Part shown: positions 795 through 11,435 of the stretch, piece after piece
Layout: every line of letters begins with the position of its first letter
How positions within the stretch are numbered: the first letter of the stretch is position 1
Assembly: GCA_002069765.1 (NCBI GenBank)
Contig: MWBZ01000006.1
Location: forward strand, 1-64,000
Source: a bacterium ADurb.Bin243
GTDB lineage: Bacteria; Muiribacteriota; UBA9980
DNA: 64,000 bases
Direction of reading: 5' to 3'
Program-made: the position numbers and the translations under genes
Notes under the pieces: model-generated
What the model was told of the DNA's origin: nothing
Database searches by the model: none
The model's input: the letters and a program-made list of their open reading frames with translations, nothing else

Positions 795-2153
795 CTACCT
801 TATATCGAGAACCTTCATTTTGTACCTGAGGACCCTTTCGGATATTCCGAGCTTTATAGCTGCTTCGGTTTGATTTTTAGACATTTTAAGCGCGTCGGCG
901 ATATAAATTTTTTCTAATTTAGCCGTCGCGGCGTTTAAGCCGCGGCCGAAAAAATTAAAAATATTTTCTATTTGAGTATCAGGTCTTAAGCCCGCGCCGG
1001 CAAGCGACAAATCTTCTGTTTTCAGAGCCGGAGAGTTTGAAAAAATTAGCGCGCGCTCGACCGCGTTGATCAATTCTCTTATGTTTCCGGGCCAATCGTA
1101 AGATTCTATAGCGCCGACCAATTCTTTATCCAGCGCCGGAGCTTCGCGGTTCATTTTTTTAGAGATTATTTTTACGAAGTGCTCGAAAATAATGGCTATA
1201 TCGGCTTTTCTTTCCCTGAGCGGCGGCATTTCTATGTTTACCACGTTTATTCTAAAATAAAGGTCTTCCCTGAATTCTTTTTTTTCCACCGCGCGCATGA
1301 GGTCGGTTTTGGTGGCGAATATCATTCTGATGTCAGCCCTGCCCGGCTTCGACGAACCCACGCGGTAATATTCGCGGGATTCAAGAAAACGCAAAAGCTT
1401 TGGCTGGACGGCCATTGGAAGATCGGCTATTTCGTCCATCAAAAGCGTGCCGCCGTTGGCCGCTTCTATGATGCCGGCTTTTTTTTCGACCGCTCCGGTA
1501 AAAGCGCCTTTTTCATGCCCGAACAACTCGCTTTCAAAAAGCGTTTCAGGTATCGATGCGCAGTTTATCTTTAGATATTGCCTGCCGTTTCTTTCAGACT
1601 GGCGCCATATGGCGGCGGCGGCGACTTCTTTTCCGCAGCCGGTCGGGCCTGTAATAAGAACGCTGGTATTAAGGGGAGCGACGGTTTGAATAATCCGTGA
1701 AATATTTTTTATTTTAGGGTCGTTGCCGAGAATGGCCGGCGCCGGGTCTATGGCGGAATTTTTCAGCACGTCCCTTTCAACGGCGACTTTTTTACCGTTA
1801 AGGATGTTTTGCGCCATAGCTTCGAGAAGTTCGAGATTTATAGGTTTTTCGAGAAAATTGTCCACGCCGTGCTTAATGGCTTCAACGGCTGTTTTTATGG
1901 TTCCGTACGCGGTTATTATGATAGCGGAGACCGAAGGCAATATTTTTTTCGCTTCTTTGACGAGCTCCAGGCCGGAGCCGTCGGGCATCGCAAAATCGGT
2001 TATTATCATGTCGGGGCTATAAAGCTCCGCTTTATTAAGCGCGTCTTTCATTGACGCGCAGGAGTGGACCGCATATTTTTTCGATTCGAAATATCTTGTT
2101 AAAAGGTTTAATTGAGCCTGCTCGTCATCGGCTATCAATATAGTCCATTTCAT
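795..2153 (-). CDS. NtrC-family sigma-54 response regulator (ZraR-like)
   Basis: A 452-residue transcription activator. Residues 1-120 form a receiver domain with the phosphoacceptor Asp at about D53 (IITDFAMPDG). Residues about 140-375 form the sigma-54 AAA+ domain with a Walker A (GPTGCGKE) and the sigma-54 contact loop GAFTGA. The C-terminus is a Fis-type helix-turn-helix (AAIKLGISERVLRYKMK). Its ATG overlaps the stop of the kinase gene (ATGA), so the two are one operon. It should bind upstream of a sigma-54 promoter; the nearest one is 4298-4313, in front of the divergent Cys-rich gene. It ends in TAG with TAA six codons further on. Confidence 0.93.
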   Translation of the reverse strand: MKWTILIADDEQAQLNLLTRYFESKKYAVHSCASMKDALNKAELYSPDMIITDFAMPDGSGLELVKEAKKILPSVSAIIITAYGTIKTAVEAIKHGVDNFLEKPINLELLEAMAQNILNGKKVAVERDVLKNSAIDPAPAILGNDPKIKNISRIIQTVAPLNTSVLITGPTGCGKEVAAAAIWRQSERNGRQYLKINCASIPETLFESELFGHEKGAFTGAVEKKAGIIEAANGGTLLMDEIADLPMAVQPKLLRFLESREYYRVGSSKPGRADIRMIFATKTDLMRAVEKKEFREDLYFRINVVNIEMPPLRERKADIAIIFEHFVKIISKKMNREAPALDKELVGAIESYDWPGNIRELINAVERALIFSNSPALKTEDLSLAGAGLRPDTQIENIFNFFGRGLNAATAKLEKIYIADALKMSKNQTEAAIKLGISERVLRYKMKVLDIR

Positions 2154-4114
2154 TTCAATTCTCCTTCACTTAGCGGGAACGATATTTTAACTTTGGTTTC
2201 GGTTCCGACGCTTTCTATACTTATTACCGCGCCGTGCTGTTTGACGATTTCCGATACTATGGCCAGCCCAAGGCCGCTTCCGCCTGATTTCGTGCTATAG
2301 CCGGCGTCGAAAATTCTTTCCAGCGCTTGCGGCGCTATTCCGCCGCCGTTGTCGGCGAAAGTTATATCTGCCGTTTTTTCTCCTAACGACTCGCTTATCG
2401 TTAATAAACCCATGTATTCGCCTGATTTTTCAATCATTTCAGAAACCGCCTGTACGCAATTCAGTAAAATATTATAAAACGCCTGTATCAGCAGGTCATA
2501 ATTGCCGTCGATCAAAACTCGCTGCTGATTTATTGACGACTTTAATTTGATTCTTTTCGAATAACTTCCGTCGGATATATATTTTTTTATTATCGAAACC
2601 GAATAAAGCAATATTTCATTCAAGTCGACTTTTCGGGTTTCAATCTCCAATGAACGCCGGCCCAGATAATTTTTAACAATGCGGTTGAGCCGATCTATTT
2701 CATCGAGGCAAAAATCTATCTGCTCGGCCGCCCGGCCCTGATATTCTTTATCGCACGGAAGCCCTTTCGCCATTTGCAGGCTCATGGATATAGAGTTTAG
2801 CGGATTGCGCAGCTCGTGGGCGAGTTTGGCCAGAAAAAGCGCGGCCATGTTATGCTCCGATGCTATGCCTATCTGGATTTCACGGTCTTTTTCACCGGCC
2901 GTATCTATAAAAAGCAATAGCGCCATGCCGCCGGATTTAACCAGCTGACAGCGGTACGGCCGAAACGACGAGTCGGGAGTTTTTATTAAAAGCTCGGTCT
3001 GGCTGAAACCCGTTGAATTTTCTATAAAATCCGCCAGCGCCTGGTTTTCTTTAAAGAAATCCAGCTCACCGGCGGCGCCGGAATCATAATATTTTCCCGC
3101 TCCGTCGTTTGAATAACTCTTTTCAACGCCTGTCCGGCCTGCATTGATTAAAGCTTCGCTGGCCGAATTCAACGGCCTGATTTTTTTATCGGGTTCGATC
3201 AAAACGGCCGGAAACGGAAAAATAGAGAGCGCTTTAAAACTGAATTCGCTGAGGCTTGAGTAATCGCTCTTAAGCGATGCCATAGAGGATTTCAACCGGC
3301 CGTATTTTTCGATAATCAGATATACTGAGAAAAATAAAAAAATCATAATGGAAAAAATTATTTTGCTTTGCGTTTTAAGCGCCGACAGCGGATCGGCGCG
3401 GCTGTAAGCCGCCATTTTCAAAAGCGAAAGGCCGTTTAGTTGAATGTAATATTCCGTTAAAACGCAATTTTTAACGTCATGATCGTTATTTTCATAATAA
3501 GCCGCTATAGGACCGTCCGTATCGGAGCCGTGAAGCACGACCGCCTTTAACGATTGATACTGCGCTATATTTTTCATGAGCGCAGTCAGCTTTTCCCGGT
3601 TGAAAAATTTTTCGAGTTTTTTGAGTTCGAACATGATCCTGACGGTTTTTCCGTCCGCGCGAAATGATACTCCGAATACATCCTGTTCGCAATGAACTTC
3701 GGGATCGATTCCGAAATAATGATATTCTTTTTTTCCTTCGGCGACGAGGTTGCATTGAAAGTGCGGATTCAGTTTAAGGCCTGTCATGGCTCCTGAAGCT
3801 GATGCGGTAATGGTGGAATCGTCCTGCATAAAGTAAACGTCTTTTGCGCCGTACTTTGCAGCAAGTTCTTCCGGCGTCAGGCCCGGCTTAAAAGCGGCTA
3901 TTATTTCGTCGAGATGCTTTTTCAGATTTGAACGGAATTCATTGTCGTTCCATATTATTTCACGCAAAAGGCCCCTGGTGGTGCCTGCTATAGTTTCGTC
4001 CTTGGACTTTTCTATGGCATAGAAAAATCTTTCATTAACCTGGAATGAAATTAATATAAAAATTATTATCAAAATAATTATTACCGGTTTACTTATATTT
4101 TTTCCTGAAGGCAT
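2150..4114 (-). CDS. Membrane sensor histidine kinase (ZraS/NtrB-like)
   Basis: Start taken at the ATG at 4114, which follows AAAGGAGCAGGC; the frame stays open up to 4255 but without such a site. The product of about 654 residues has a transmembrane segment at residues about 8-25, a periplasmic sensor region to about 255, a second membrane segment, a PAS-like linker, a HisKA H-box (AHELRNPLNS, His about 433) and an ATPase domain with N-box, DNGGGI and GGSGLGLAI motifs. The layout of one periplasmic loop between two membrane segments fits a sensor of an envelope signal. It is translationally coupled to the regulator at 795-2153. The ligand cannot be read from sequence; metal or redox stress is suggested only by the divergent Cys-rich gene. 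Confidence 0.92.
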   Translation of the reverse strand: MPSGKNISKPVIIILIIIFILISFQVNERFFYAIEKSKDETIAGTTRGLLREIIWNDNEFRSNLKKHLDEIIAAFKPGLTPEELAAKYGAKDVYFMQDDSTITASASGAMTGLKLNPHFQCNLVAEGKKEYHYFGIDPEVHCEQDVFGVSFRADGKTVRIMFELKKLEKFFNREKLTALMKNIAQYQSLKAVVLHGSDTDGPIAAYYENNDHDVKNCVLTEYYIQLNGLSLLKMAAYSRADPLSALKTQSKIIFSIMIFLFFSVYLIIEKYGRLKSSMASLKSDYSSLSEFSFKALSIFPFPAVLIEPDKKIRPLNSASEALINAGRTGVEKSYSNDGAGKYYDSGAAGELDFFKENQALADFIENSTGFSQTELLIKTPDSSFRPYRCQLVKSGGMALLLFIDTAGEKDREIQIGIASEHNMAALFLAKLAHELRNPLNSISMSLQMAKGLPCDKEYQGRAAEQIDFCLDEIDRLNRIVKNYLGRRSLEIETRKVDLNEILLYSVSIIKKYISDGSYSKRIKLKSSINQQRVLIDGNYDLLIQAFYNILLNCVQAVSEMIEKSGEYMGLLTISESLGEKTADITFADNGGGIAPQALERIFDAGYSTKSGGSGLGLAIVSEIVKQHGAVISIESVGTETKVKISFPLSEGELK

Positions 4115-4232
4115 GCCTGCTCCTTTCAATCTTAATATCGTTTTATTATTAAAGACGCAACTAACATGCCATGCGAAGATTGCCATAGCACGGGCCTGCT
4201 TAAGATTGATAAAGTTATTATAACATATTTGA

Positions 4233-4246
4233 CGACAATTTTGTCG
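4233..4246. promoter_or_regulatory. Palindrome, candidate activator site (UAS) for the NtrC-type regulator
   Basis: CGACAA TT TTGTCG is a perfect inverted repeat (six-base arms, two-base spacer). Its centre is about 85 bases before the predicted start of the sigma-54 transcript at about 4324, the usual range for an NtrC-class enhancer site. It lies between the divergent kinase and Cys-rich genes, so it could serve either. Assignment to this regulator is inference. Confidence 0.5.
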
Positions 4247-4297
4247 AAAAAACATTTTATTTTATAAAAAAATTCTATTTACTGGCCTTTTTAGGCC

Positions 4298-5195: not shown

Positions 5196-8100
5196 CTATT
5201 GCACGTCTATTGCATTTGTTGTGTTTACCGGTATTAAAAGATAATTTCCGGCATCGTCTTTTATTATATTAGGCGTGAAATATATACCGGATGGCGATCC
5301 AGCGACTGTAATGGTATTATTATATGTGCCCGCTACTTTAATAATACCGTTGGTTCCAGAACCTAAAGCCTCGACCGATATTTTATTAGAAGTAATACCA
5401 AGCGTTGCCCCGGCACCAAAACTATCATTTACAACAGGGAATTTAATATCAGTTAATGCGAAACCGCTCGCAACTATATTTTCGTTGAAAGTGATCGTGA
5501 GTTTATCGGTTACATTATATGTAAATATTCCGTCTGTACTTAAATTAGCGATGATCGAAGAAACCATAGGAGCGGTTATATCGTATCTTATCGAGCCTGA
5601 AGCCGATGTAGAATATGATTCATTGCCAACCGCGTTTATAATCCATAAATTAGTAGTTAAGAAACTTACTCCGCCGTCCGCGCCGAGCGCGTCTTTTAAT
5701 TTTGTATCTAAAGCACCTGTTTTAAGTGTAAATTGACCTGTTTGATCGCCGGAAGATATTATGGGATATTCAAGCAATGCAGTTTTATTAGAATCGTTAG
5801 GGTTGATTATTTCGAAAATTGCGTTGCCTGAAGATGCAGTGGTAGTGAATGCAACCGCCAGCTGCTGGGTTGGTCCGGGCGCGGAAGCGTTTACAACCGA
5901 TTGCGCGAGCGAATCGTTTATAAAGTTTATACCGTTATTAGAGCCGTTATAGTTAGCGGGTATAATAGTGGCTTGATATGATATAGCGGGCGGTACCATT
6001 GTGGGCGTTGAAGGAACCGATGATGATTCGTGACCCGTAGCTACATCAACAAAGGTGAAAGTAAGATTGCCGCCGTTAAATTCGGGCGTTACGGCAAAAT
6101 CGGAATAGCCGCCTTGCCTATCAATTTTTACGTCCGCGCCTGAAGCCGTTCTCGATCCTCTATATACTGAATTTATATAAACGTTGAGCTTTTTACCGTC
6201 TGGAATGATAAAATCAGTGGACTCATTAATATTTTTAATTTTATAGATTTTTTGCCCATCGTAGACGGCCCTTAAAGATTCTGTATTTACAGGCGCTAAC
6301 GGCCCGGCCGCGCTGTCGCGGAGAACTGATTCATTGTGATATGAACTTTCTAATGAAAAAGCTATCATATTTCCGTCGTCCACAATAGGCGCGCTTCCGC
6401 TAAGAGCGTAAACTCCGTTTACGGCAAAGCCGTTCACTGCTGCGCCGCCTGTATAACCTCGCTTGAAGTAAGTTGATTCGACATATTCAAAAACGTTAAT
6501 TATATCATTTTCAGATCCTGTATTTGAATTAGTTATTTTTATCGTGTTAGTAGTATTAGAAAATAAAATGTTGTTAGACTCAGGTCGTGCCGGTACATAG
6601 TCGCTGATTCCTGGTGATGCACCATCCGACGCATAAGAAGATTCGTTGCCAGAAGAATTTATATAAGCAAATTTTAAAGTTCCTCCGTTTATGGCATCAG
6701 TTTTTAAGCTAGTTGCATTTTTACCTTCGGCGTAACTTTCTATATATTGATCCTGCCCGATTGTAGATTCGGAAGCTTTTCCGATAAGCATATCAACTGT
6801 TTGCGAATCTACGGAAGTACGAACTACGATTTTTAAGGTGTTTGAAAGTGTAATTGATGACTGCAACAAATTTACTGCCTGATAATTAAGCCCGTTGTTT
6901 TTAAGTTTTAATGCGGCCGCTGCCTCGATTGGAGCCGCCGGCACCATGCCTCCGTTTATGAAGTTTGATTCGTTGCCTGAATCGTTTGCCAGAACGTAAA
7001 AAATAGAATAATTAGATGTTATGGCGGTTCCGGAAAAATTTATAACCGTATTGGCTGCATAACCTCCGGCCGGAGCGGGGCTTGCCGCCTGGGCTTTGTA
7101 TTCGACGGTAGCGCTTAAATTTTGATAAGCTTTAAGGGTTTCGCCCTGAAGCCCCACTGTCGAACCGCCCGTGGTGGCTGTAATAGCCGCGTTGCTCCAG
7201 TATAAATTTTCGGCCGGCGGCGGCGATGGAATGGTGCCGTCCTGTATCCAATTTGTGGAATTACCCACATAGTCGACGAGCCGGTAAAAAACTTTATTGC
7301 CTGACAGATCCGGCGGTTGCGGAAAATAATTTACGCTGCGCTTGACGGATTTATCTTTCAATGAAGCTCGAGGCGTAAAACGAGGCGCTGCAATGCCGGA
7401 AATCGTTATCAAATCGGTGTTCGCCGGAACCGAATCCATAAAATCGGAAACATTCGCAGGAAGCGGCACTACGACAGGTTGTTCCGAACCGATATAAACT
7501 TCCAGCTTGGAGTATTCTGAAAGTGAAAAACTGCCAGTGCTGAATACTTTTAACCGCATATTGCTGAAACCTAAAAACGATAAATTTTGCGCGGAAAGAT
7601 CGTCCGGCGGGGTGGTGTCGCGCAATACGTCATTGCCGGCGGCCGAAGCCGCGGCTTCCGTGCCGGTACCGCTTCTAATGCCATTTGCTGCAAGAATTTT
7701 CAGGCCGGCATGCATTTCGCCGACTGTAATGCCGTCAGATTGGGCTGCGGGAAGAATATCGCTGAAATTACTGGTGCCGTTAACTGTTATGGTAATAGAC
7801 TGCCCGGAATATTCAAGAACATCTATGCCGGACTCGAAATATAAACCATCTAAAGTTATTTTAGAAAGCGTATCCTGCGGATTGGACACGCTGATATTAG
7901 TGCTGAAAGTCAACTTTATTTTTTTGCCCGAAACCATCTCTGCCTTATTTAAAACAGGCACCACTACCGGAGGCGGGACGTAATTATTGACGGCGAACGG
8001 CTGCGATACGTTAAAATTTTGAACATTGCCTTTGGAATCTATAGCGGCGAGTTTCAAGATAACCCCGGACGCGTTTTGATTAACTATATCTTTGGCGGAT

Positions 8101-10058
8101 TCCCATACCAGTTTTAAATTATTTGCGGGCGTTACGTTCGAAATCGAACCTGTTACGCTTGCGGTTTTTATGAATGAAACGCCGCCGTCGCGTGAATAAA
8201 ATACCTCTATAGTGGCAGCGTCGCCTTCAGCGTCGGTGAGATTAAAATCTACGGTTATGTTTTGCGAATTGCCGGCTACGGAGTTTATGAAAATTTCGCT
8301 GGACGCGTTGTTATAAACTTTGAACGGCTGCGAAATAGCCTCGCCGCCCGGTCCTCCGTCGTCGGAAACTATCAGCTTGACGCTCACGCTGTCGTAGTTT
8401 TCGGTGAAATCGCCTTTTGAGTTCCATAGCAAAGTTTTTCCGGCGCCCGGAAATACTTCGGCGGTTTCGCCCGTTACGAAAATAGAATTCAGATAGCCGC
8501 CCGAAGCTTCCGTGGCGTACTGAAACTGAACATGACATGTGCTCGCGTCTAAATCGTCCACGTCGTAAACTATCTCGACTTCGCCGGAATTTACTTTGGT
8601 TAAAAGATTGGCTATGGTAGGACGGTTTATATTGTTATTCACTTCGAACGCGATCGAAACCGCTTCGGTGCCGGCGCCGAAATCGTCTATGGGCAATAAT
8701 TTTATGACGACGCTTTTTTCGCTGGTGCGGAAGTCGCCGTAGGAGTTCCATTTAATTGATTTATTCGCGCCGGGCGCGACCGCGTGTATGTCTCCTTCTA
8801 CATATCCGCTCTGAACGAATGAAGAACCGCCGTCGCGTGAATAATACACTTCGACGGTGCACGGAGATGCGTCGATGTCTTTTAATTCATAAGAAATATC
8901 GATGATTTTTGAATTGCCTGAAACTGCGAGCTGCGATATTTCTGGCCTTCCGCCGCCGTTATAAACGGCGAACGGACCGAAAACGGCCTCTGTACCGTAA
9001 CCGTATTTATCCGAAGGCGCGGCTTTAATATAAACTGTTTTATTTACTGAAGTAAAATCCGAATACGAATGCCAGATAAGAGTTTTTCCCTGGCCGGCGG
9101 CCACGCTCGAAGTTTCGCCCGAAAGATTTACGGTGTTTATATAATTAAGCCCGCCGTCCAGCGAATACGACACTTCTACAGTGCATAAATGGCCGTCGAG
9201 TTCGATCAGATCGTAAGAAAGCGAGATATCTTTATAATTGCCTGAAACGCTTAAATTTTGTATGACCGGCGGAGTATTCTTAATGTTGTTGACGTAAAAT
9301 ACGCCCGATTCGCCGCTGGTGCCGCTGCTGCGCGAGTCGTTAGGCGTCAGCCTGATTTTTAGGTTTTTTTCCTCGCTCTGAAAATCGAGCGCGGAGTTCC
9401 ACACTAAAGAAAGTCCGGTCGCCGGAAATTCGCGCCGGCCGTATGACGAGTAATTTGCGCTGCGAGTGAACGTGGCCCCGCCGTCGATAGAATAATATAG
9501 TTCCACGGCGCAGCTGTCGCCGTCCTGGTCCATAAGGTCATATTTTACCGAAATATCGCCGCGTTCGCCGGAAACGATAACGCCCATTATCACAGGCGGG
9601 TTATTTTCGGGATCGGCTATTTTGTTGTTGACTGCGAAAACTCCGGATTCGCCGGCCTGGCCTGACGCGCGGTAATCGCGGGGAATAAGCTTGATGCGCA
9701 CGGAAGCCTGGTCGCTTAGAAAGTCCGACGCCGAAAACCATACCGCGCTTAAATTTGCGCCCGGATAGGCATTCGATAGCGCCCCGCTCGCGCTGGAAGT
9801 CGGCAGGTAAGAATAACCGCCGTTGAGCGAGTACTGAACGTCTATCTGGCAGGGATCGTTTTCTGCGTCGAAAAGGTCGAAAACGATCGAAATGTTCTGT
9901 GAAGAGCCGCTGACTGATTTTATGCTCAGCGAAGGCGGAGTGTTGGGCTTTTCTACCGCGTTAAAAATTATCGATTCTACGATGAAACCGTAATCGAAGG
10001 AAGAAACCGATACAGTTTGCGATTGAGGCCCATAGCCGCCGGCGGACATCGAAACCAT
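5196..10058 (-). CDS. Giant repeat surface protein, downstream part of a TAG-split frame
   Basis: 1620 residues from the first ATG, but the same frame runs open back to 10271, directly behind the TAG that ends the upstream lipoprotein gene. The residues before the ATG complete a carboxypeptidase-regulatory-like fold (SGRV...QTDQNGNFTL...AGDYMVSM), so the ATG at 10058 is not a natural start. Then come six Ig/Fn3-like repeats of about 100-110 residues (VSGN..I.I.YDL.D.D...C.VEV.YS.DGG...), an SbsA-like Ig domain near residue 700, and a long Ser/Asn/Gly-rich part with recurring ES(S/N)Y-type motifs ending in another Ig-like domain. There is no signal peptide of its own. Likely a broken or read-through cell-surface protein. 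Confidence 0.8.
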   Translation of the reverse strand: MVSMSAGGYGPQSQTVSVSSFDYGFIVESIIFNAVEKPNTPPSLSIKSVSGSSQNISIVFDLFDAENDPCQIDVQYSLNGGYSYLPTSSASGALSNAYPGANLSAVWFSASDFLSDQASVRIKLIPRDYRASGQAGESGVFAVNNKIADPENNPPVIMGVIVSGERGDISVKYDLMDQDGDSCAVELYYSIDGGATFTRSANYSSYGRREFPATGLSLVWNSALDFQSEEKNLKIRLTPNDSRSSGTSGESGVFYVNNIKNTPPVIQNLSVSGNYKDISLSYDLIELDGHLCTVEVSYSLDGGLNYINTVNLSGETSSVAAGQGKTLIWHSYSDFTSVNKTVYIKAAPSDKYGYGTEAVFGPFAVYNGGGRPEISQLAVSGNSKIIDISYELKDIDASPCTVEVYYSRDGGSSFVQSGYVEGDIHAVAPGANKSIKWNSYGDFRTSEKSVVIKLLPIDDFGAGTEAVSIAFEVNNNINRPTIANLLTKVNSGEVEIVYDVDDLDASTCHVQFQYATEASGGYLNSIFVTGETAEVFPGAGKTLLWNSKGDFTENYDSVSVKLIVSDDGGPGGEAISQPFKVYNNASSEIFINSVAGNSQNITVDFNLTDAEGDAATIEVFYSRDGGVSFIKTASVTGSISNVTPANNLKLVWESAKDIVNQNASGVILKLAAIDSKGNVQNFNVSQPFAVNNYVPPPVVVPVLNKAEMVSGKKIKLTFSTNISVSNPQDTLSKITLDGLYFESGIDVLEYSGQSITITVNGTSNFSDILPAAQSDGITVGEMHAGLKILAANGIRSGTGTEAAASAAGNDVLRDTTPPDDLSAQNLSFLGFSNMRLKVFSTGSFSLSEYSKLEVYIGSEQPVVVPLPANVSDFMDSVPANTDLITISGIAAPRFTPRASLKDKSVKRSVNYFPQPPDLSGNKVFYRLVDYVGNSTNWIQDGTIPSPPPAENLYWSNAAITATTGGSTVGLQGETLKAYQNLSATVEYKAQAASPAPAGGYAANTVINFSGTAITSNYSIFYVLANDSGNESNFINGGMVPAAPIEAAAALKLKNNGLNYQAVNLLQSSITLSNTLKIVVRTSVDSQTVDMLIGKASESTIGQDQYIESYAEGKNATSLKTDAINGGTLKFAYINSSGNESSYASDGASPGISDYVPARPESNNILFSNTTNTIKITNSNTGSENDIINVFEYVESTYFKRGYTGGAAVNGFAVNGVYALSGSAPIVDDGNMIAFSLESSYHNESVLRDSAAGPLAPVNTESLRAVYDGQKIYKIKNINESTDFIIPDGKKLNVYINSVYRGSRTASGADVKIDRQGGYSDFAVTPEFNGGNLTFTFVDVATGHESSSVPSTPTMVPPAISYQATIIPANYNGSNNGINFINDSLAQSVVNASAPGPTQQLAVAFTTTASSGNAIFEIINPNDSNKTALLEYPIISSGDQTGQFTLKTGALDTKLKDALGADGGVSFLTTNLWIINAVGNESYSTSASGSIRYDITAPMVSSIIANLSTDGIFTYNVTDKLTITFNENIVASGFALTDIKFPVVNDSFGAGATLGITSNKISVEALGSGTNGIIKVAGTYNNTITVAGSPSGIYFTPNIIKDDAGNYLLIPVNTTNAIDVQ

Positions 10059-10271
10059 ATAATCGCCGGCCGTTAAAACGCCCTGCGCCGCGCTAAGCGT
10101 AAAATTTCCGTTCTGGTCCGTTTGAACGGAAACGGAAAGCTTTTCTATCGTGAGCGACGCTCCGGCGACGGCTGCGCCAGTTCCGGCGGCCTGAACGCGG
10201 CCGCTAAACCCGGCAGCGCTTCCTGACGAAGCTTTTAAAGCGATTTCATCATCTACGGCTTTTTTTACCAG

Positions 10272-11435
10272 CTACGCGTCAAGCTTTGAATCATATGATG
10301 CCGCGAGCTCCGAAGTAATAAGCCGCGGTTCGCCGCCTGGGCCTATACGGATATTCGCGAGCTTGACTTTCGCCCCTTTTATGAAGGTCTGCAGCCTGAC
10401 GGCGGAGCCGGATGAGGTTAAAAATTCTATATAAACCGGGACTTCCGAAGGTCCGGCTTTTAAGTCGAGTTTGAAAAATCCGGAAGAATCCGTCACCGTA
10501 AAGTATTGCAGATTACCGCAAATCACCTTGATTTCTTTACCGGCCAGCGGCGCGTAAGACTTTTTCATGCCGGGAGCCGCCGCGGAATCATCGGTTAAAT
10601 AGCCCGCCAGCAAAGAATCCGGAATAACCGCCCCGCTGGATTTTATCGGCTGGCTGTATGCCGTAAGCGAACCGTAAACCGCTTTAAGTTTTATATAGCC
10701 GGCCTGGTCGGGAATTAAGCTGGATACCGCCAGATTTGAAAATACCGCGGAGCCGTTCGCCAGATTTTTAGAATTTATTGAATCTTTAAACGAACCATTT
10801 TCAAGGCTGACCGATATAAGGCCGTTTTCGGACGTCATAGTATTTCCGAACTGGTCTAGAACGCTTAATTTAAAAGACGGTATTATAGTGGAAGGCGTAA
10901 TTTCGCCGACAGGTAAAGCGGGATCGAAAACTATCTTAGACGGATAAAGCTTGATATATTCGATAGTTCTAAAAACAAGCGATACGGAAACTTCGTTTGC
11001 GCCGGGAGTTTTCAGGGCTTTTTCCGCGTTTAAAACGGTCACCGTTCCCGAGCCCTGCCATATAGATTCATAAATATCGTTGGCGCGTTCTTTCAGCCTG
11101 GCCGTTACTATTACCGAATAGGTGTCGCCTGCGGGAATCTGGTTGTCGAATGTGAAAACGTTTAAAGAATAATCGACGGTTTTATTGGCCACTTCTTTTT
11201 TGTCTTTAATGCTTATCACGCTTATATTAACCGTGCCCAGCGCGTTTTGCGGTATGCTTACATACGCCTGCGAAGGCGTCCGGTCGAGCATGTTAAGCTT
11301 TACAGATATGTTTTGCGGATTGTCGAAAAATATCGGCGAAGACGATCCGCCCCCGCCGCAGCCGCAAACGGCAAAAGATAAAACTAAAATGAAAAGCGCC
11401 GTACAAACCGCAGCGCCGCGTAAATTTATTTTCAT
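10272..11435 (-). CDS. Surface lipoprotein, upstream part of a TAG-split frame
   Basis: A 387-residue protein with a signal and lipobox (VCGC) followed by Gly and Ser, so lipid-anchored. Start ATG 11435 follows CGGAGACC. An Ig-like region with the PSKIVFDPALPV and PSFKLSVLDQ motifs is shared with the lipoprotein at 1-599. Residues about 275-365 form a carboxypeptidase-regulatory-like domain (LAGKEIKV...TVTDSSGFFKLDLKAG). The stop at 10274-10272 is TAG and the next gene continues in the same frame with no start codon, so the two were probably one protein of about 2080 residues. No catalytic motif is seen. Confidence 0.85.
   Translation of the reverse strand: MKINLRGAAVCTALFILVLSFAVCGCGGGGSSSPIFFDNPQNISVKLNMLDRTPSQAYVSIPQNALGTVNISVISIKDKKEVANKTVDYSLNVFTFDNQIPAGDTYSVIVTARLKERANDIYESIWQGSGTVTVLNAEKALKTPGANEVSVSLVFRTIEYIKLYPSKIVFDPALPVGEITPSTIIPSFKLSVLDQFGNTMTSENGLISVSLENGSFKDSINSKNLANGSAVFSNLAVSSLIPDQAGYIKLKAVYGSLTAYSQPIKSSGAVIPDSLLAGYLTDDSAAAPGMKKSYAPLAGKEIKVICGNLQYFTVTDSSGFFKLDLKAGPSEVPVYIEFLTSSGSAVRLQTFIKGAKVKLANIRIGPGGEPRLITSELAASYDSKLDA

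Follow-up and report, generated by a model that had tools for sequence, protein, structure and literature searches.

We find that a gene for a giant modular surface lipoprotein on the minus strand of the window (the whole 64,000-nucleotide stretch of DNA analysed) is interrupted by a single in-frame TAG, which we interpret as probably a recent nonsense allele yielding a 387-residue truncated lipoprotein. The frame begins with ATG at 11435, runs for 387 codons to the TAG at 10274-10272, and continues for 1691 open codons, with no second stop or gross break among them, to a second TAG at 5198-5196. A sequence-only reading of this DNA had described the frame as uninterrupted from 11435 to 5196 apart from this one TAG, and as lacking any start codon between the TAG and ATG 10058; both descriptions are borne out by the sequence, the second for ATG, GTG and TTG, with ATG 10058 lying 71 codons downstream of the stop. 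The features are as follows.

10275-11435, minus strand: pre-stop part, 387 codons, with an N-terminal signal and a lipobox-like Cys (lipobox by eye), then conserved domains; conserved in GWC2_49_35 and UBA6123
10272-10274, minus strand: internal in-frame TAG, from the sequence; a sense codon in 3 of 3 relatives
5196-10271, minus strand: post-stop part, 1691 codons plus terminal TAG, from the open frame, Pfam and orthologue alignments
10392-10556, minus strand: weak PF13620-like match 5' of the TAG, E 0.012, under the curated cut-off
10002-10205, minus strand: PF13620 carboxypeptidase regulatory-like domain, entirely 3' of the TAG, 38.9 bits against a cut-off of 32.3
10056-10058, minus strand: first ATG/GTG/TTG after the internal TAG, with a poor ribosome site (-2.8 kcal/mol)
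2150-4255, minus strand: histidine kinase, syntenic in two relatives
795-2153, minus strand: sigma-54 response regulator, syntenic in two relatives

A dicodon model gives a coding score in this frame on either side of the TAG, and alignments with orthologues extend through the frame both 5' and 3' of it, which together indicate that the split frame is not due to chance. A search of 56 genomes returned same-genus orthologues in two, and a follow-up scan gave five loci, from which three orthologues were retained (Ca. Wallbacteria GWC2_49_35, bacterium JPNA_metabat.86 and UBP16 UBA6123) and two short, weak matches were dropped. All three carry a sense codon at the TAG site, each for a different amino acid. 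The sequence-only reading had suggested looking for an intact gene in relatives, and two of the three orthologues indeed consist of one open frame, of 2385 codons in GWC2_49_35 and 1841 codons in UBA6123, while the third is frameshifted elsewhere. The two uninterrupted orthologues have the same modules as the window gene and no internal stop, with 67% (GWC2_49_35) and 65% (UBA6123) identity in the N-terminal part, and differ from it in length and in the C-terminal end; gene order in GWC2_49_35 is as in the window, with two-component system and radical SAM neighbours. The JPNA_metabat.86 copy, on a contig that begins inside the gene, is ≈86% identical to the window gene up to its own frameshift, a one-base lesion near window residue 1288 (about 7574-7572), ≈900 codons beyond the TAG site; it likewise has a single lesion, but a frameshift rather than a stop, the codon facing the window TAG being sense in JPNA. 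Counting the window, broken copies are thus found in two of four genomes, with lesions at different places.

The post-stop part contains one carboxypeptidase-regulatory-like domain, repeats of ≈108 residues and a variable C-terminal region. The PF13620 match occupies residues 23-90 of the piece that follows the TAG, and a weak match to the same family precedes the TAG. The stop therefore sits in an inter-domain linker; that it cuts the carboxypeptidase-regulatory-like domain is ruled out, as the match lies wholly downstream. The sequence-only reading had this domain completed before ATG 10058, which does not hold: the ATG is residue 72 of the downstream piece and falls within the domain (10205-10002). 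A structure prediction for residues 28-612, made with four sequences, was poor (mean pLDDT 43.2, pTM 0.28) and hints at a helix beginning about the TAG site, flanked by two beta regions. A search of NCBIfam assigned no family, and Rfam gave no match in the window at gathering scores.

These positions bear on whether the locus holds two genes, or re-initiates, with the post-TAG part translated from a start of its own. An ATG is available 71 codons past the TAG, but it lies inside a conserved domain, its ribosome-site energy (-2.8 kcal/mol) compares with a random median of -2.4 and with -6.6 for the gene's own start, and no signal peptide is seen at it by eye, in agreement with the earlier claim that the downstream part has no signal of its own. 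CTG and ATC codons near the TAG, at -0.1, are no improvement, and ATA 10148 has an energy of -6.4 but would be unusual as a start codon. Since relatives show one uninterrupted frame here as well, we regard translation from a separate start as scarcely credible.

Comparison with JPNA shows purifying selection before the TAG and strong purifying selection after it, with dN/dS of 0.172 before it (95% interval 0.085-0.315, 113 codons) and 0.129 after it (0.101-0.160, 899 codons). Over 578 post-TAG columns in which GWC2 and UBA6123 agree, 15 amino-acid changes are found only in the window and 22 only in JPNA, so that no acceleration is seen on the window lineage. A simple binomial bound on the unconstrained share of the window branch gives P of 0.030 at 5% and 0.005 at 10%, and it is unlikely that more than about 5% of that branch was unconstrained. 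An old pseudogene is rejected because dN/dS past the stop is low and no second lesion is present. Either the break is young, or it is absent from cells, or full-length protein continues to be made in some amount; the sense codon in the relatives, taken with continued purifying selection without acceleration, argues that the stop is private and very young, or else a consensus error.

The last of these, an assembly or consensus error with a sense codon in the cells and full-length lipoprotein made, is the main rival to the nonsense allele, and we consider it a real though distinctly lesser possibility. The base is known from one genome of the species and so may be such an error: the lesion is a single base in a draft genome of 317 contigs (96% complete), it is accompanied by no other lesion and no relaxed selection, and the JPNA copy also has one lesion, as draft genomes can. 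Short-read substitution errors are rare, however, and only one other clear split was found in the sample of this genome that we scanned (1,297,695 of 5,007,425 bases). That scan used a dicodon model whose training set was these same contigs and contained this gene; a scan by single-codon score was too weak and missed this TAG, and a plain length scan, superseded by the dicodon scan, chiefly picked up pairs likely to be antisense shadow frames. Among 1785 same-frame neighbours, 83 score as coding on both sides of the stop; a start lies within 10 codons in 60 of them, leaving 23. At least 40 codons precede a start in only two cases, this TAG and a TGA on another contig (G000:C8:51572). Four of the 23 besides this one were read as protein: the TGA case reads on as protein, and each of the other three looks like the end of one gene with a new gene after it. 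The apparent TGA split lies near the end of a 625-codon frame. The 1.30 Mb thus contain two clear splits by an in-frame stop, this TAG and the TGA. A lone split is therefore uncommon, though a few can be expected in a genome as large as this one, and the phenomenon is not confined to TAG.

We find no support for a UAG-decoding system in this genome. The 858 non-overlapping ORFs of at least 150 codons in the sample end in TAA (570), TGA (174) or TAG (107, this gene among them), with 7 open at sequence ends, and reassignment of UAG (codes 15/16) is rejected, TAG being a normal terminator with one clear internal occurrence in 1.30 Mb. The search for a CUA-anticodon tRNA that the sequence-only reading had proposed found none among the 46 tRNA genes identified, as their anticodons are read by ARAGORN. 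The pyrrolysyl-tRNA synthetase model TIGR02367 matches once, at 20.7 bits where the cut-off is 178.15; the same model also matched 13 of 14 control genomes, one of them above the cut-off. RF2 is present (named by eye from the sequence), and the RF1 gene (L083 1483-2097) runs into a contig end once about 203 of the 361 model positions are covered, with the rest of the gene not found; the assembled part looks normal and contains a P-x-T motif, the UAG-reading motif. Stop usage, tRNAs, the synthetase search and the assembled part of RF1 thus all speak against genome-wide UAG recoding.

Functional read-through at this one site, in which UAG is decoded often enough for some full-length protein and the TAG serves as an expression throttle, we regard as improbable. 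Purifying selection past the stop is what read-through would leave, and Belinky et al. (2021, PMC7918605) propose such cases to be widespread in bacteria. Against it, the stop is found in none of the three orthologues, there is no CUA tRNA among the 46, and the synthetase match is under its cut-off. The downstream RNA has an ordinary folding energy (z -0.51): a stretch reaching from 6 bases on the 5' side of the TAG to 92 bases on its 3' side shows no folding advantage over shuffled versions, and a structured read-through signal is rejected on this ground. The stop being so young, the selection signal needs no read-through. It is highly doubtful that the young amber codon in the linker acts as a leaky throttle, giving mostly the short anchored lipoprotein with a small share at full length and tolerated thanks to read-through.

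With a recent nonsense allele, the preferred reading, a normal orthologue encoding a giant modular surface lipoprotein would, in the population or strain that was sampled, have recently acquired a single-base substitution that made a linker codon TAG. Ribosomes would stop there and release a truncated lipoprotein of 387 residues, with the signal and the N-terminal domains but without the repeat array, and there would be no useful expression of the 1691 codons downstream. The TAG base would then be real in cells and the truncated product made, and the allele may be polymorphic. Among the causes listed in the sequence-only reading, nonsense mutation, population polymorphism and assembly error fit these results; efficient UAG read-through is not supported, given normal TAG use, no CUA tRNA and the absence of the stop from orthologues. 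For phase variation, also on that list, no local repeat that could drive it is seen by eye near the stop, the only run being an A7 after the TAG, which cannot bypass it.

No precedent for this locus appeared among the papers listed for Wallbacteria, stop reassignment and read-through, surface-protein in-frame stops, or stop artefacts in MAGs; the nine listed for Wallbacteria lack that name in title and abstract. In-frame stops in bacterial genes are described in PMC7918605 as widespread, usually short-lived and accompanied by dN/dS below 1, and its authors suggest read-through, yet assume most stops to be without functional recoding; this picture fits the present case, and for that reason read-through is kept as a minor rival. 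Like the cases in that paper, the window gene has one in-frame stop, a dN/dS far below 1 around it and an apparently short-lived lesion on the scale of population polymorphism; unlike them, being shared by two or more species, the window stop is in a single genome and may be an artefact. If read-through were true, the locus would be one more short-lived in-frame stop of the kind described in bacteria; it offers no evidence for recoding in Wallbacteria. A private premature stop in a giant surface lipoprotein gene of an uncultured environmental bacterium is an ordinary event, and its main value is caution, as an annotator would split one conserved gene at the internal stop, and the second of the two resulting proteins would have no signal.

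Further observations concern the C-terminal end and the neighbouring genes. Over the C-terminal part at 5196-6887 (residues 1517-2079), identity to JPNA falls abruptly from 91% at residues 1400-1500 to about 19-32% past residue 1500, and that to GWC2_49_35 is 44% over most of the part. Past about residue 1516 JPNA has a different sequence; judged from these alignments, the C-terminal end looks mosaic or swapped. Synteny with both JPNA and GWC2 covers the histidine kinase, the response regulator and a small ORF, and with GWC2 it takes in the radical SAM and DUF362 genes upstream. At 3-599 lies the N-terminal part of a paralogous second lipoprotein, cut by the contig end and 70% identical to the gene at the same position in GWC2_49_35.
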